This document shows, piece by piece, positions 37,013 through 43,007 of a DNA stretch of 64,000 nucleotides. The stretch covers positions 1 to 64,000 of the forward strand of contig NZ_UFQQ01000026.1 in assembly GCF_900218015.1 (NCBI RefSeq). Direction: 5' to 3'. Under the pieces are notes generated by a model. It worked only from the letters and a program-made list of their open reading frames with translations, did no database searches and was not told the DNA's origin. How positions within the stretch are numbered: the first letter of the stretch is position 1; each line of letters starts with the position of its first letter. Source of the stretch: Rhodopseudomonas pentothenatexigens. Its GTDB lineage: Bacteria; Pseudomonadota; Alphaproteobacteria; Rhizobiales; Xanthobacteraceae. The position numbers and the translations under genes were made by a program.

Positions 37013-37351
37013 TCAGTTCGGCAGGCTCTCCGAGCCGCGGGCGTGCGTCTTGATGATCAGCATGATGTTGCGGACGTAGATGATGGTGGCCATCGCCTGG
37101 CCGACGATGATCACCGGCTCGCGCTTGGCGATGCCGTAGACCAGCGTCATCAGGCCGCCGCCCATCGAGAAGAACCAGAACGCGATCGGCACCACGCTCT
37201 TGCCGGCGCGCTCGCTGGAAATCCACTGCACCAGGAAGCGCGCAGTGAACAGCAGTTGCGCGACCAGCCCGAACGCCAGCCAGAAATCGAACTTGGCGAC
37301 GAACACGTCGTACAGATAATCGCCCAGTTCCTGGCCATATTGAATCAGCAT
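37013..37351 (-). CDS. LAB_N (lipid A biosynthesis N-terminal domain) small membrane protein
   Basis: 112 residues from ATG 37351, which overlaps the stop of the GT2 gene by one base (TGATG). Three likely membrane helices (about 17-36, 48-68, 76-94). The family signature LLFTARFLVQWISSERAGKS followed by VVPIAFWFFSMGGGLMTLVYG is clear. Stand-alone LAB_N proteins lie beside polyprenyl-phosphate glycosyltransferases. In size and position this one resembles the ArnE/ArnF flippase subunits, so a role in moving lipid-linked sugar is a reasonable inference, not shown. Confidence 0.88.
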   Translation of the reverse strand: MLIQYGQELGDYLYDVFVAKFDFWLAFGLVAQLLFTARFLVQWISSERAGKSVVPIAFWFFSMGGGLMTLVYGIAKREPVIIVGQAMATIIYVRNIMLIIKTHARGSESLPN

Positions 37352-38103
37352 CAGTTCACCTCGGTGGCGACCGGCGTTGCTTTCTTGCGGCGGATCAGCC
37401 ACCACACCCCGGCCAGATCCATCAGTCCGACCCACAGCCGGTCGAAGAAGCCGTAGTTGGACCTGCCCGACAACCGTGGCCGATCGGCGACGTCGACATA
37501 GACGATGTCGAAACCTTCGCGGCGCACCAGCGCCGGCAGGAACCGGTGCAGCCCGTCGAAATACGGCAGTGACAGAAACACCTCGCGGCGGAACGCTTTG
37601 AGACCGCAGCCGGAGTCCCTGGTTCCGTCGCGCAGGATGCCGTTGCGCACCTTGTTGGCGACCCGAGACTGCAGCCGCTTGAACCCGGTGTCCTTGCGCC
37701 CTACCCGCTGGCCGGCGGCCAGACCGACCCGGGCGCCGCCCTGCTCCAGCGCGAAGATCAGATCGGGAATGAACGCCGGGTTGTTCTGGCCGTCACCGTC
37801 GAGCGTTGCCACGATTGCCCCGCGCGCCGCCCGTACTCCGGTCCGCACTGCGGCCGACTGGCCGCACGACGAGCGATGGCGGATCTGGCGTAGATTGGGC
37901 CGCTCGGCGCGTAGCGCGGCGAGCCGCTGCGGCGTGGCATCGGTCGAGCCGTCGTCGACATAGACGATCTCGTAAGCCCAGCGCCCGTCCAGTGCCGCAG
38001 CGATCTCGGCGATCAACGGAGCGACGTTTTCGGCTTCGTTGCGCACCGGTACGACGATGGACACCGCGGGCTGCGGTCCGGACTGGGTCATCGGTTCAGG
38101 CAT
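37351..38103 (-). CDS. Family 2 glycosyltransferase, ArnC/DPM1-like polyprenyl-phosphate sugar transferase
   Basis: 250 residues. GT2 fold: SIVVPVRNEAENVAPLIAEI, the IVYVDDGSTDATPQRL motif, and IVATLDGDGQNNPAFIPDLI with the DxD equivalent. It follows the DPM1/GtrB pattern but has no C-terminal membrane pair, so it is the soluble or peripheral type. It should load a sugar onto polyprenyl phosphate for the ArnT-like enzyme two genes upstream. RgtE of Rhizobium, which makes a polyprenyl-phosphate galacturonate, is a plausible functional relative. Start ATG 38103; an ATG at 38091 is also possible. The sugar is not determinable from sequence. Confidence 0.9.
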   Translation of the reverse strand: MPEPMTQSGPQPAVSIVVPVRNEAENVAPLIAEIAAALDGRWAYEIVYVDDGSTDATPQRLAALRAERPNLRQIRHRSSCGQSAAVRTGVRAARGAIVATLDGDGQNNPAFIPDLIFALEQGGARVGLAAGQRVGRKDTGFKRLQSRVANKVRNGILRDGTRDSGCGLKAFRREVFLSLPYFDGLHRFLPALVRREGFDIVYVDVADRPRLSGRSNYGFFDRLWVGLMDLAGVWWLIRRKKATPVATEVN

Positions 38104-38171
38104 GCTTCGGGACAATCCGGGGCCGTCGGGAACTCGCGGCCGGGGCGCGAACTTGGCGCGCGCCCCGCTTC

Positions 38172-39014
38172 TTATGGGGCCACAGCGTCGCGGGCAACCC
38201 TTTTGAGGCGGTCCCAGGAGGGCCCGTCGAGCGGGTCGATGCCGCCGTCGGGGCGGATGGTGAAGGCCAGCCGACGGGCGGCGAACCAATACCGCACCGC
38301 CATCGCCCCGACGATGCCGAGCAGCGCCCCGGCGACCACGTCGCTGGGGTGATGGGCGAGCAGCACCAGCCGGGTCGCCAGGATCGTCAGCGCATAGACG
38401 ATCATCACACCGGTCAGCCGCGGCCACAGCGCCGAGACCGCAAACGCCAGCGCGGCCGCGGTGATCGAGTGGCCGGACGGCAGGCTGGCATAGGCTTCGT
38501 TCCAGGCGAACAAAGTGAAGTTGAACGGGTCGGCGGCCCCGCCGACGAACGGGCGGCCGCGGCCGATCACGCCCTTGAACACCTCGCCGGCGAGCACCGG
38601 CACCAGGACGGCCAGCAGCAGGTACTGTACCCGGGTGCCGACACCGATCAGCACCGCGCGCGACGCCCCGTGCAGCCGGGGCAGCAGCAGCCATACAGCC
38701 ACCGCCAACCCCGCCAAAATCCAAAGCACGTAACGCGACTTGCCGAATTCGGTCAGGATCCTGATCGGCCACAGCGACGGCGTGCCGCGCGGCAACATCG
38801 CGGAGATCACGACCGCATCGACGGCAAACATCAAGGCTACCGCCACCAGCGACAGCAGCGCCGCCAGCAACAGCGCCTGCCGCGCCGCCCGCCGGGCTGC
38901 CGCCGCGCGTCGCGAATGCGACGGCTCGCGCACCAGCCGTTTGAGCGACCAGCCGATCGCGCGCGGCAGCTCCACCATATAGCCGGGCCTGCCGACGCTG
39001 TTCCTGCCGGCCAT
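38172..39014 (-). CDS. PAP2-family membrane phosphatase
   Basis: 280 residues from ATG 39014, one base from the stop of the ArnT-like gene. Five or six helices, with the three PAP2 phosphatase motifs: KGVIGRGRP (K-x6-RP), SLPSGHSITAA (PSGH) and TRLVLLAHHPSDV (SR-x5-H-x3-D type). Such enzymes dephosphorylate lipid A (LpxE), undecaprenyl pyrophosphate or phosphatidylglycerol phosphate. In this operon removal of a lipid A or polyprenyl phosphate would make room for, or recycle, the lipid carrier. Which substrate is open. Confidence 0.9.
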   Translation of the reverse strand: MAGRNSVGRPGYMVELPRAIGWSLKRLVREPSHSRRAAAARRAARQALLLAALLSLVAVALMFAVDAVVISAMLPRGTPSLWPIRILTEFGKSRYVLWILAGLAVAVWLLLPRLHGASRAVLIGVGTRVQYLLLAVLVPVLAGEVFKGVIGRGRPFVGGAADPFNFTLFAWNEAYASLPSGHSITAAALAFAVSALWPRLTGVMIVYALTILATRLVLLAHHPSDVVAGALLGIVGAMAVRYWFAARRLAFTIRPDGGIDPLDGPSWDRLKRVARDAVAP

Positions 39015-39015
39015 G

Positions 39016-40761
39016 CTATTGCGTGCCCTCGGAGCGGAAGATCGCAATCGACACCGGCTTGCCCTGCGAGAAGTTGTAGCCCTCGATCCGCGCCGCCACG
39101 TTGTAGCGCAACCCGATCGCCTCGGCCCGGCCGGCGAAGGCGCGTTCGCTGCGCGACTCCACGATCGCGAACCGGCAGGTGCCACCGAGCAGGAAGTCGG
39201 CGGCGCCGGAACCGTCGGTCAGCAAAGTCCGGGTATCGGTCATGAACACCAGGCTCGGCTCGTGATAGCCGGCGGCGGCTGCCTTCGGACCGACGCAGAC
39301 TACCTTGCGCAGTTCACGCGCGATCTCGACGCTCGGAAACACCGGACGCAGCGTCGGCACCACCACGCCGAACACCGCAACGCCGAGAAACAGCGACGCC
39401 AGCGCGGCGTTCAACAGCGAGGCTTCGGCGCGGTTGTCGTCGAACAGACGCCACGCGAACAGGCCGAAGATCAGCGACGCCGCCGCGAACGGCCAGGCCA
39501 GAAACATCGGATGACGCGTCAGATACACCGAGCCGATCACCGCCAGCGGCAGGATGATGGCCGGGATCGCGAACCACCACGCCGAGCCGCGGGCCAGCCA
39601 GGAGCGCGACAGCACTTTCCGCTCAATCGCCCCGGCCGTCATGATCGCGATCGCCGGATACAGCGGCAGCACGTAATGCGGCAGCTTGGTGATCACCAGT
39701 TCGAACACGATCCAGGACGGAATCAGCCAGGCCAGGAGGTATTGCGCGCCCGGCTCCCGCCGCGCCCGCCACACCGCGGGAGCGGCCATCGCCGCCAGCG
39801 GCGCGCCGGGCCAGAACGTCGCCCAGAACAGCAGGAAATACAGGCCGGGCGGCGCGCCGTGCGACTCCATCGGGCTGGCGATCTTGCTCAGCATGTCGCC
39901 GCCCACCGAGTCGGCGAAGAAGGTGTCGCCGGCGCGCAGATAGATCGCGATGAACCACGGCAGCACCAGAACCAGCATCCACGGCAGGCCGAGCAGCGGC
40001 CGCAGCCGCCACAGCCAGGCGGCCGAACGGTCGAGGATCGCCAGCGGGATCACCGTCAGCGCGATGAACATCAGGATCAGCGGGCCCTTCAGCAGGATGC
40101 CGCCCGCCAGCGCGGTCCAGAACACCGCCGGCACGATCAACGACCGCTCCGGCCCGATGTCGCCGCGCTGCCAGCCGAGATAGGCCCGCGCCATCGCGCC
40201 CATCGCCGCGGTGACGGCCAGCAGCAGCACCGCGTCGGTCTTGGCGAGTCGCGCCTCGACCCCGAGCAGGATGCAGCTACACAGCAGCAGGCCGGCGACG
40301 ACCGCCCCGCGCCGGCCGACGAACGCCAGCGCCGCCCAATAGGTCATCAGCACCGCACCGATCGCACCGGCGAGCGACGGCACCCGATACAGCCAGATCC
40401 GGACCTGCGCGCGCGGCAAGCCGAGCTTGCCTGCGGTCTCCACCACGGCGGCCTGCAGCCAATAGATGCCGACCGGCTTCTTGTAGCGAACCTCGTCCTG
40501 ATAGCGGATGTCGATGAAATCGCCGGTCTCGACCATCTGCTTGGTCGCCTGCGCGAACCGCGCTTCGTCGCGGTCGATCGGCGGGATGTTGAAGAATCCC
40601 GGCAGGAAGAACAGCAGCCCGACCACCACCAAAAACGCGGTCGCGCGCAGATGGCTCACCGTGACGAAATCCAGCACCGCGACCAGCCCGCGGCCGGGAT
40701 CGACGGTGGTTTTAGGTTCGCGCGGCGCGCCGAAACGGGGTCTGGCAGAGGTCTCGATCAT
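39016..40761 (-). CDS. ArnT-like GT39/GT83 polyprenyl-phosphate glycosyltransferase
   Basis: 581 residues with about 12 membrane helices. The first periplasmic loop has the catalytic region IPPIDRDEARFAQATKQMVE (Asp-Glu motif), followed by RYKKPVGIYWLQAA, typical of ArnT and related enzymes that transfer a sugar from a polyprenyl phosphate onto lipid A or other envelope glycans in the periplasm. The C-terminal soluble part (about 470-581) is also ArnT-like. First gene of a four-gene operon with PAP2, GT2 and LAB_N. In Rhizobium lipid A, related enzymes add galacturonic acid, so lipid A decoration is my preferred role. Confidence 0.9.
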   Translation of the reverse strand: MIETSARPRFGAPREPKTTVDPGRGLVAVLDFVTVSHLRATAFLVVVGLLFFLPGFFNIPPIDRDEARFAQATKQMVETGDFIDIRYQDEVRYKKPVGIYWLQAAVVETAGKLGLPRAQVRIWLYRVPSLAGAIGAVLMTYWAALAFVGRRGAVVAGLLLCSCILLGVEARLAKTDAVLLLAVTAAMGAMARAYLGWQRGDIGPERSLIVPAVFWTALAGGILLKGPLILMFIALTVIPLAILDRSAAWLWRLRPLLGLPWMLVLVLPWFIAIYLRAGDTFFADSVGGDMLSKIASPMESHGAPPGLYFLLFWATFWPGAPLAAMAAPAVWRARREPGAQYLLAWLIPSWIVFELVITKLPHYVLPLYPAIAIMTAGAIERKVLSRSWLARGSAWWFAIPAIILPLAVIGSVYLTRHPMFLAWPFAAASLIFGLFAWRLFDDNRAEASLLNAALASLFLGVAVFGVVVPTLRPVFPSVEIARELRKVVCVGPKAAAAGYHEPSLVFMTDTRTLLTDGSGAADFLLGGTCRFAIVESRSERAFAGRAEAIGLRYNVAARIEGYNFSQGKPVSIAIFRSEGTQ

Positions 40762-40811: not shown

Positions 40812-43007
40812 CTATTGAATTCTGACGACAACTGTGTCCGCGGCGCCAGCGGCGTCCATCACGGTGAGCCGGACGAACCCCGGACCGGGCGGCGCGATCA
40901 GCCGTTGTCGCCGTCCGTCGAGCTCGCCGACCGACAGTCCGTTGACCATCACGGTCATCGGCAGCACCCCGCCGGCGACTTTCACCGGCAGCGCGCCGAT
41001 CGACGCTTCGCTGACCGCGTCGATCCGTGATCCGTTCAGCGGAAACTGGATCCGCAGCGCCTTGTCGTCGCCGGCTTGCATCAGGTCGCCTGCCGGCCGG
41101 AACCGGCGGAGCGGCAGCGGCAGCTTGGCATTGCTGGCGACCAGCGTTCCCCGCGGCGCCTTCGGCAGAGGTGCCCGCAGATGCCCGCTGCGGGCGAACG
41201 CGTCGAACAGCACCGGCGCCGCGGCGACGCGGCCGATCATGCCGGGCACCGGAGCACCATCGGGCCGGCCGACCCAGACCCCGATGGTCATCCGGCCGTC
41301 GAATCCGACCGACCAGGCGTCCCGGTAGCCGTAAGACGTGCCGGTCTTGAATGCGATCTGGCTGCGCGCCGCGTTCTCCGGCGGCGGCGTGCCGAGCAGA
41401 ACGCTGCCGACCTGCCACGCCGCAACCTGATCCATCAGACGCAGACTCTCGCGCTTGTCGTTGCCGGAACTCGCGATTTCGCGCAGCGGCAGCACGCTGC
41501 CGAGACGCGGCAGCCCGCTGTAGAGCTGCACCAGGTCGATCAGCTTGACGCCGACGCCGCCGAGCCCCATCGCCAGACCCGGCACCTCGTCCTTGGGCAG
41601 CACCAGCTCGGTGCCGGCCTGCTTCAGCCGCGAGGTCAGGCGCGCCGCACCGACACGGTCGAGCAACGAGATCGCCGGGACGTTGAGCGACAATTGCAGC
41701 GCCTTGCGTATCGGCACGGTGCCCTGGAACGTCATGTCGAAATTCTCCGGCGCATAGGCGCCGAACCGCACCGGCCGGTCGTCGATCAGGCTTTCCGGAT
41801 GAACGAAGCCGTCCTCGAAGGCGAGGCCGTAGATGAACGGCTTCAAGGTCGAGCCAGGCGAGCGAACCGCCCGGGTCATGTCGACCTGGCCGGCGCGGCG
41901 ATCGTCGAAATAATCGGCCGAACCGACATGGGCGAGCACCTCGCCGCTGGCATTGTCGACCGCCACGATGCCGATCGAGATCTCCGGCCCGAGCGCCGCG
42001 GCGCGGTCGCGTGCCAGCGTCTCCAGCGCGCGCTGCATTCCGGCGTCGAGCGTCAGCCGGATCAGCGCCGACTCCTTGTCGGTCGCCACCGCCTGGTCGG
42101 CGGAATGCGGCGCCAGGATCGGCATCGGCTTGCGCTGGCGCAGCACCGGCACCGCCCTCGCCTGGGCCGCATCCTCGGCGCTGACCACGCGATCCTCGAC
42201 CATCCGCGCCAGCACCCGGTCGCGCGCCTCCCGGGCCACGTCCGGATGGCGGTCGAGCCGGCGATGTTCGGGCGATTGCGGCAGCGCCACCAGCAGCGCC
42301 GCTTCGGCCAGCGACAGCCGTTTCGGCTCCTTGCCGAAATAGGCGATCGACGCGGCGCGGATGCCTTCGAGATTGCCGCCATACGGCGCCAGCGCCAGAT
42401 ACAGATCGAGAATCTGCTGCTTCGACAGCGTCTGCTCGAGCTCGACCGCCCGCACCATCTGCCGCAGCTTGGCGCTGAGCGATCGCTGCCGCCGCGGCTC
42501 CATCAGCCGCGCCAGCTGCATGGTGATGGTGGAGCCGCCGGACACGATCCGGCCATGGCTGACGAGCTGCAGCGCGGCGCGCCCGACCGCCAGCGGATCG
42601 ACGCCATGATGCGACCAGAACCGCTTGTCCTCGTAAGCGAACAGCAGCTTGAGGTAGCGCGGATCGACTTCGGTGGCTGCGTCGACGGGCAGCCGCCAGC
42701 GCCCGTCGGCCATCGCGAACGCCCGCAGCAGCTTGCCGTGGCGGTCGACCACCGTGACCGAGGTCTGCCGCGCCTCGTCGAGCGGCAACGGGCCGAGCGA
42801 GACGGCGTAAGCGAAAAGGCCGCCGACCGCTACAACGACCGCAACCGCCGACACGATCGCGCCCCGCTTGAGCCACGCCCATCCTCTCCGCCGGTCATGG
42901 CCGGGCTTGTCCCGGCCATCCACGTCTTTCGCCGTCGACGAGTCAGGCGTGGATGCCCGGGACGAGCCCGGGCATGACGATCGTGGTGGTGTGGGCGCCA
43001 CGCTCAT
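40812..43007 (-). CDS. pbpC: Penicillin-binding protein 1C
   Basis: 731 residues. Membrane anchor near 48-70, GT51 transglycosylase domain about 80-250 (catalytic Glu in YEDKRFWSHHGVD, E126), transpeptidase domain with S386-T-L-K389, S440-L-N442 and K554-T-G556, and a C-terminal BiPBP_C domain (about 640-731). The ATG at 43007 overlaps the alpha-2-macroglobulin stop by 4 bases. Residues 10-38 (SSCPGSSRASTPDSS and on to KPGHD) are encoded entirely by a palindromic repeat, so the cytoplasmic N-terminus is an insertion product. PbpC and alpha-2-macroglobulin are commonly linked; PbpC is thought to repair peptidoglycan after envelope damage. Confidence 0.95.
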   Translation of the reverse strand: MSVAPTPPRSSCPGSSRASTPDSSTAKDVDGRDKPGHDRRRGWAWLKRGAIVSAVAVVVAVGGLFAYAVSLGPLPLDEARQTSVTVVDRHGKLLRAFAMADGRWRLPVDAATEVDPRYLKLLFAYEDKRFWSHHGVDPLAVGRAALQLVSHGRIVSGGSTITMQLARLMEPRRQRSLSAKLRQMVRAVELEQTLSKQQILDLYLALAPYGGNLEGIRAASIAYFGKEPKRLSLAEAALLVALPQSPEHRRLDRHPDVAREARDRVLARMVEDRVVSAEDAAQARAVPVLRQRKPMPILAPHSADQAVATDKESALIRLTLDAGMQRALETLARDRAAALGPEISIGIVAVDNASGEVLAHVGSADYFDDRRAGQVDMTRAVRSPGSTLKPFIYGLAFEDGFVHPESLIDDRPVRFGAYAPENFDMTFQGTVPIRKALQLSLNVPAISLLDRVGAARLTSRLKQAGTELVLPKDEVPGLAMGLGGVGVKLIDLVQLYSGLPRLGSVLPLREIASSGNDKRESLRLMDQVAAWQVGSVLLGTPPPENAARSQIAFKTGTSYGYRDAWSVGFDGRMTIGVWVGRPDGAPVPGMIGRVAAAPVLFDAFARSGHLRAPLPKAPRGTLVASNAKLPLPLRRFRPAGDLMQAGDDKALRIQFPLNGSRIDAVSEASIGALPVKVAGGVLPMTVMVNGLSVGELDGRRQRLIAPPGPGFVRLTVMDAAGAADTVVVRIQ
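42895..42979. repeat. Dispersed palindromic repeat, family B, copy 1 (inside pbpC)
   Basis: Inverted arms TCATGGCCGGGCTTGTCCC and GGACGAGCCCGGGCATGAC, with inner arms CATCCACG and GGCGTGGATG. The entire unit is open in the pbpC frame. A second copy lies at 56709-56797. Confidence 0.85.

Follow-up and report, generated by a model that had tools for sequence, protein, structure and literature searches.

The LAB_N protein encoded by the last gene of a four-gene operon in Rhodopseudomonas pentothenatexigens is a good candidate for a polyprenyl-phosphate-sugar flippase, comparable to MPDU1. The operon lies on the minus strand of the window, the whole stretch of 64,000 nucleotides that was analyzed (positions 1 to 64,000 of contig NZ_UFQQ01000026.1). 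We consider LAB_N a candidate because it co-occurs with and adjoins an RgtE-type glycosyltransferase, because a VTT-domain protein takes its place in other genomes, because it occurs as a two-domain fusion, and because it belongs to a clan of transporters; the transport itself we infer. That the operon is a lipid A 1-galacturonosylation module, with LAB_N as its dimeric flippase for the lipid-phosphate-sugar, is a reading to which we give even weight for and against. The four genes are as follows.

39016..40761, minus strand: rgtF-like GT-C glycosyltransferase (ArnT/PMT superfamily), 581 amino acids, called from NCBIfam and PDB profile matches and position.
38172..39014, minus strand: lpxE-like PAP2 phosphatase, 280 amino acids, called from Pfam PAP2, motifs and a PDB match to LpxE.
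37351..38103, minus strand: rgtE-like family 2 glycosyltransferase (GT2), 250 amino acids, with no predicted transmembrane (TM) helix, called from Pfam and ArnC-like matches.
37013..37351, minus strand: LAB_N protein (PF07578), 112 amino acids, with three TM helices and an N-terminal helix, called from Pfam and a structure model.

From 40761 to 37013 the genes run 5' to 3' as ArnT-like, PAP2, GT2 and LAB_N, separated by 1 bp, by 68 bp and then by a 1-bp overlap (TGATG). The initial annotation had described just such a nearly contiguous minus-strand set, and the sequence, together with the Pfam domains, bore it out. The GT2 gene has another in-frame ATG at 38091, besides the start at 38103.

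The initial annotation had also called for a survey of gene neighborhoods, and this survey ties LAB_N closely to RgtE. We searched 290 alphaproteobacterial genomes with profiles for LAB_N and for the RgtE-type GT2, the latter built from an alignment of 41 LAB_N neighbors, a choice that may favor such GT2s. GT2s of at least 263.5 bits were taken as RgtE type; the remaining matches reached at most 232 bits and had open frames of 303–418 amino acids, one cut one apart. A match of 192 bits in G060, cut by the contig end just before its LAB_N gene, was counted as RgtE type. LAB_N scored over its cut-off in 85 of the 290 genomes, and all 85 held an RgtE-type gene (84 whole, 1 cut); 173 genomes had neither (Fisher 7e-47, with relatedness ignored).

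We then assembled 101 alphaproteobacterial LAB_N loci, made up of 84 other LAB_N loci from the 290-genome set, 16 of 27 from relatives, and the window itself. In 85 of the 101, the gene immediately upstream of LAB_N, on the same strand, was RgtE; a GT-C of the window's kind was present anywhere in the stretch in 81, and a PAP2 of the window's kind in 33. Outside the alphaproteobacteria, LAB_N matches came from 25 genomes (24 over the cut-off), and in other Pseudomonadota the two genes were adjacent in 15 of 20 loci, drawn from 19 of those 25 genomes. A diverged group of LAB_N sequences (E about 1e-18) from non-alphaproteobacterial Pseudomonadota likewise stood beside RgtE (L203, L207, L208, L213, L220 and L222). 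The 80 named relatives retained were the best of 581 matches; the closest to the window protein is from Rhodopseudomonas sp. AAP120 (90%), and all 80 had an RgtE-type GT2 directly upstream. Since all 16 genomes searched within the genus, that of the window included, also contained LAB_N, the pairing is not due to chance.

Coupling of this kind could also mean that LAB_N is a membrane anchor or activating subunit of a soluble RgtE, with the flip left to another protein or to slow scrambling. DPM2 and DPM3 serve DPM1 in a similar manner. By hydropathy, a predicted TM helix was absent from 40 of the 41 aligned RgtE-type GT2s, as it was from the window GT2, while the GT2s of at most 232 bits have the longer frames given above; moreover, RgtE adjoins LAB_N at more loci than hold a recognized GT-C anywhere in the stretch (85 versus 81). 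Given an RgtE free of predicted TM helices, the anchor role is a serious rival. It leaves unexplained why a plain tether should belong to a transporter clan and keep 19 invariant positions across 73 sequences, and RgtE occurs without LAB_N in 32 of the 117 genomes that hold it. We judge it unlikely, at a level that still demands attention.

The clan of LAB_N was already known, Lab-N being listed among the SWEET/PQ-loop (MtN3-like) families (PMC4499210). The window protein matched LAB_N with 106.6 bits against a cut-off of 26.7 (E 7.3e-31), and this was its only Pfam match up to E 1, with no EamA, SMR or GtrA match. Homology to ArnE/F, which have the EamA/DMT fold, was rejected on the lack of any EamA or SMR match in that search. 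Over the three-helix unit, LAB_N shows profile-level homology to the SWEET/SemiSWEET/PQ-loop clan: hhalign aligned it with 18 SemiSWEETs over 86 columns at E 5.6e-5 and a probability of 66%, versus E 0.5 and 0.16 for two control membrane families. Seven of the ten PDB profile matches listed were SemiSWEET entries (best E 0.0056), of which we take PDB 4qnd to be one, and the two LAB_N profile matches under threshold, in G116 and G124, were SemiSWEET genes. The protein falls outside the SemiSWEET family itself (SemiSWEET_3, 18.6 bits against a cut-off of 100), and no MtN3_slv match was found in its own genome.

A column comparison of 73 LAB_N sequences with SemiSWEETs showed what the two share and where they part. 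The PQ-loop Gln and a Tyr were kept in 73 of 73. Unlike SemiSWEETs, LAB_N has lost the PQ-loop Pro, mostly to Val or Ile, and thus lacks the PQ motif; the Asn position is Gln in all 73, the Trp position is Leu in 58, and there is a genetic link to a lipid-sugar synthase. Trp and Asn bind sugar in SemiSWEETs. LAB_N has invariant additions at Arg38, Trp43, Glu47, Arg94 and Asn95. Besides the start Met, 19 positions were invariant, many of them polar and within helices. The structure model, with a predicted local distance difference test score (pLDDT) of 92.5, has a short helix followed by three long ones, and the charged invariant residues face the side with the positive loop and the C terminus. 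We take this side to be cytoplasmic, and those residues could hold a phosphate or a uronate. A variant at L139:5932-6765 (plus strand) carries a C-terminal extension that by eye resembles a glyoxalase-type domain.

The clan also includes MPDU1, a PQ-loop protein needed for the use of dolichol-phosphate-mannose (PMC3281891). MPDU1 and LAB_N are likened here by clan rather than by direct sequence comparison, and the roles of both are tied to a monosaccharide-phosphate-polyprenol donor; MPDU1 differs in being a eukaryotic seven-helix protein.

We also examined the position behind RgtE in 34 RgtE-type loci from the 32 genomes that have RgtE and no LAB_N, reading the neighbors by eye for part of them. 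A VTT-domain gene lay directly downstream of RgtE in 12 of the 34 (12 genomes, 7 families), and in 0 of 85 loci with an adjacent LAB_N (Fisher 5.8e-8, relatedness again ignored); PF09335 was confirmed for five of the VTT proteins, and the others were called with a profile built from seven. Locus L159 (GT-C, GT-C, RgtE, VTT and a four-TM protein) is the same as L128 and L132 (GT-C, GT-C, RgtE, LAB_N and the same four-TM protein) save for the swapped gene, with recognized flanks alike, and family f101 holds both forms (L073 versus L169, L179 and L192). Among VTT proteins, some of the DedA type flip undecaprenyl phosphate and the eukaryotic members scramble phospholipids (PMC10127716, PMC12893004). 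The swap thus points to a shared lipid-moving step, whose direction it does not name.

That direction matters, as LAB_N might instead carry used polyprenyl phosphate back from the outer leaflet to the inner one, a recycling role like that of UptA/DedA, with no outward carriage of sugar. The slot partner in those 12 loci is of the VTT/DedA superfamily, and three of seven VTT proteins scanned weakly matched the NCBIfam UptA model (best E 6.3e-5). Loss of a DedA undecaprenyl phosphate flippase is described as making lipid A with 4-amino-4-deoxy-L-arabinose undetectable in a constitutive arn strain (PMC12893004). Recycling, however, is needed generally, and bacteria tend to carry several genes for it (PMC10127716); a dedicated gene coupled to a synthase would better fit outward flipping. 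By their motifs, as judged by eye, the slot VTT proteins more resemble the COG0398 group, which the same source describes as distinct from the undecaprenyl phosphate flippase group and thought unlikely to flip that lipid. We consider a recycling role improbable.

A four-TM protein family is found repeatedly downstream of RgtE, whether LAB_N, VTT or neither of them is present; the five members scanned had no Pfam match above the cut-off. We dropped this family as a replacement flippase, since five loci have it next to LAB_N and one has it next to VTT. Its members are listed here.

L166:5964-6389, four-TM protein.
L170:4493-4993, four-TM protein.
L175:4376-4966, four-TM protein.
L185:5898-6341, four-TM protein.
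L167:3594-4103, four-TM protein.
L128, L132, L140-L142 and L159, further four-TM proteins.

The fused form of LAB_N bears on whether it acts as a pair. One 264-amino-acid frame, at locus L206 in genome G381, holds two LAB_N domains (112 and 107 bits, Pfam) joined by a further hydrophobic stretch, a linker helix; close by, the opposite strand encodes a GT-C and an RgtE-type GT2. Two domains with a helix between them correspond to the 3-1-3 layout of SWEETs and imply a parallel LAB_N pair. The structure model of the fusion (pLDDT 82; alignment rows cover the first half only) aligned best with PnuC (Z 11.9, root-mean-square deviation (rmsd) 4.9, 171 residues; next row 9.4), and also with SemiSWEET and SWEET chains. 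Its first half matched cystinosin over 84 residues (Z 7.6, rmsd 2.0) and, in four rows at Z 6.2-6.3, KDEL receptors over 80-82 residues (rmsd 1.6-2.0); for helical proteins such as these a Z below 13 is no proof. The fusion is weak evidence because it is a singleton, found in 1 of the 79 genomes of its family, with six more giving a partial match only.

We next asked which pathway the operon serves. Both in type and in arrangement, the first three genes agree with rgtF-lpxE-rgtE, and the most likely pathway is lipid A 1-galacturonosylation. RgtF is the lipid A alpha-(1,1)-galacturonic acid (GalA) transferase, LpxE the 1-phosphatase and RgtE the polyprenyl-phosphate-GalA synthase. This enzyme set, too, was known before. 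Oligotropha carboxidovorans OCA5_c19750, c19740 and c19730 are given as homologues of rgtF, lpxE and rgtE (PMC7663294), and the window follows the order of these locus tags. Mesorhizobium loti rgtF and lpxE are described as clustered with a putative rgtE, and a joint role of this cluster in lipid A alpha-(1,1)-GalA was proposed by Brown et al. 2013, as cited in PMC5644692; R. palustris BisA53 is listed in the context of alpha-GalA at C-1 of lipid A (PMC7795004). The window shares with the M. loti and Oligotropha clusters the three clustered gene types, whose predicted product there is lipid A with alpha-GalA at C-1, and differs in its LAB_N gene, the passages that describe those clusters mentioning neither LAB_N nor a flippase. 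In M. loti, the numbering of the tags, RS01125 for rgtE and RS01135 for rgtF, would allow a single gene between the two. The window proteins were assigned to RgtF, LpxE and RgtE by gene type and order rather than by alignment with reference sequences, and GalA as the sugar and lipid A C-1 as the acceptor would follow from the match to the published set. The likeness to rhizobial galacturonosylation enzymes that the initial annotation had noted is thereby sharpened to this three-gene set (PMC7663294, PMC7795004, PMC5644692). Its broader claim, that the genes load a sugar onto a lipid carrier, flip it and attach it, stands as to the pathway, by gene types and order; the PAP2 protein most likely prepares the acceptor, and the flip is conjectural.

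Each enzyme was identified from family matches. The 581-amino-acid GT-C had no Pfam match above the cut-off; it matched NCBIfam NF009784 (E 4.6e-20, far under the cut-off of that model) and, by profile search, PDB ArnT 5ezm (E 5.1e-13), and is the single match of its kind in its own genome. It is called RgtF-like as an ArnT-like GT-C beside rgtE-like and lpxE-like genes, on family matches and published order and not on an alignment with mlr0011, and is predicted to transfer the sugar in the periplasm from the polyprenyl-phosphate donor to C-1 of lipid A. The phosphatase (Pfam PAP2, E 8e-21) contains KGVIGRGRP, PSGHS and RLVLLAHHPSD, which we take to be its active-site motifs. Because these are kept and its sole PDB match up to E 0.01 is LpxE 6ebu (E 0.0035), it is predicted to be the phosphatase that clears position 1 of lipid A for the acceptor reaction; its top NCBIfam match was PgpB (2e-8, below the cut-off). 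The GT2 (Pfam Glycos_transf_2, E 5.9e-27) had ArnC-like matches in the NCBIfam and PDB searches, and its own genome gave a single match to the RgtE-type profile within an E of 1e-30. As a short GT2 resembling polyprenyl-phosphate-sugar synthases and lying beside rgtF, it is called RgtE-like, on ArnC-like matches rather than an alignment with a reference RgtE, and is predicted to make the polyprenyl-phosphate sugar (GalA) at the cytoplasmic face.

The proposed mechanism would have four steps. RgtE would load GalA from UDP-GalA onto polyprenyl (dodecaprenyl or undecaprenyl) phosphate at the inner leaflet. LAB_N would act as a dimer, two three-helix bundles with the SWEET/SemiSWEET fold set in parallel, and pass the lipid-phosphate-sugar to the outer leaflet by facilitated flipping or scrambling. 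On the periplasmic side, LpxE would strip lipid A of its 1-phosphate, and RgtF would place GalA on the freed C-1 position.

The flipping step could instead belong to a distant gene, with an unrelated accessory role for LAB_N. The initial annotation had stated that no ArnE/F or other flippase is present, which holds for the locus and fails genome-wide: the genome encodes a GtrA domain fused to another GT2 and has 29 EamA matches, including a single-domain protein of 145 amino acids. The two candidates are these.

G000:C29, L334:3721-6350, plus strand: GT2 with a fused C-terminal GtrA domain (378 amino acids), overlapping a GT-C (498 amino acids); a second polyprenyl-phosphate-sugar module.
G000:C30, L333:4037-4474, plus strand: lone single-domain EamA protein of 145 amino acids, the size of ArnE/F.

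The GtrA domain, however, already has a GT2 of its own, to which it is fused, and a GT-C of its own behind it, a module that shows another solution beside the LAB_N operon in the same genome. Among the open reading frames listed for roughly 4 kb around the EamA gene, no glycosyltransferase was recognized by eye, and a distant flippase would leave the presence of RgtE in all 85 LAB_N genomes unexplained. We think it very unlikely. As for LAB_N as the flippase, the suggestion of the initial annotation gains from the RgtE co-occurrence, the VTT swap and the transporter clan, but LAB_N shows no likeness to ArnE/F (EamA); transport remains the conjectural part.

Several observations weigh against LAB_N as a flippase, besides the anchor role and the COG0398-like character of the slot VTT proteins. 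RgtE without LAB_N in 32 of the 290 genomes cuts against a strict need for LAB_N, as does Caulobacter: no LAB_N match was found in Caulobacter vibrioides, one of 14 control genomes, and rgtE and rgtF homologues and GalA-bearing lipid A are reported for C. crescentus CB15 (PMC7663294). LAB_N stood apart from RgtE in 16 of the 101 alphaproteobacterial loci; in L193-L196 (four genomes of one family) RgtE, GT-C and PAP2 cluster elsewhere. In 22 of the 34 loci without LAB_N the slot holds no VTT gene; the GT-C occupies it in 5 and the four-TM protein in 3. The conserved SemiSWEET Trp is lost, and Arg94 is missing from four diverged LAB_N sequences that were read; because these come from the group beside RgtE, the link does not depend on Arg94. 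In addition, LAB_N matches an LpxB family, NF002173, in its N-terminal region (E 4.4e-12), a fusion that the flippase model does not explain. The best Foldseek matches were a SemiSWEET for the monomer model (E 0.48) and a SWEET for the two-domain model (E 0.63), and the VIA-align list for the monomer was led by complex I and designed chains, unrelated helical proteins that do not discriminate; ArnE/F and GtrA were absent from the rows listed, which counts neither way. Fold searches were therefore dropped as proof of kinship, and sequence profiles were relied on instead.

A pbpC-type gene (window 40812-43007) lies upstream on the same strand, its stop at 40812 being 50 bp from the operon, and an alpha-2-macroglobulin gene is also upstream on the same strand; downstream is a convergent gene for a Cys/Met metabolism enzyme. 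A pbpC-type gene directly precedes LAB_N in L062 and L066 (family f48).

Arn systems (ArnC, ArnE/F, ArnT) and Gtr-type systems combine a GT2 synthase, a small membrane protein and a GT-C acting on a polyprenyl-phosphate sugar (PMC11127046). The window operon shares this plan; unlike those systems, its small membrane protein is of the SWEET/PQ-loop clan, its GT2 has no predicted TM helices, and an lpxE-like gene is included. On a broader proposal, LAB_N proteins would form a class of flippases with the SemiSWEET fold that move polyprenyl-phosphate monosaccharides and are the bacterial counterpart of MPDU1; they would replace ArnE/F, GtrA or VTT in three-component extracytoplasmic glycosylation and, in one lineage, would have fused into a 3-1-3 SWEET-like transporter. 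For this we put our confidence a little short of even. No publication on LAB_N function or on its link to RgtE was found in the open-access literature, and as far as those searches go three things are new: the link to RgtE, the exchange with VTT and the two-domain form. Together they turn LAB_N into a testable flippase candidate. If the flippase reading is true, a family whose name so far refers only to lipid A biosynthesis would gain a role, and a small bacterial protein of the PQ-loop clan, tied to a DPM1/ArnC-like synthase, would offer a simple test system.

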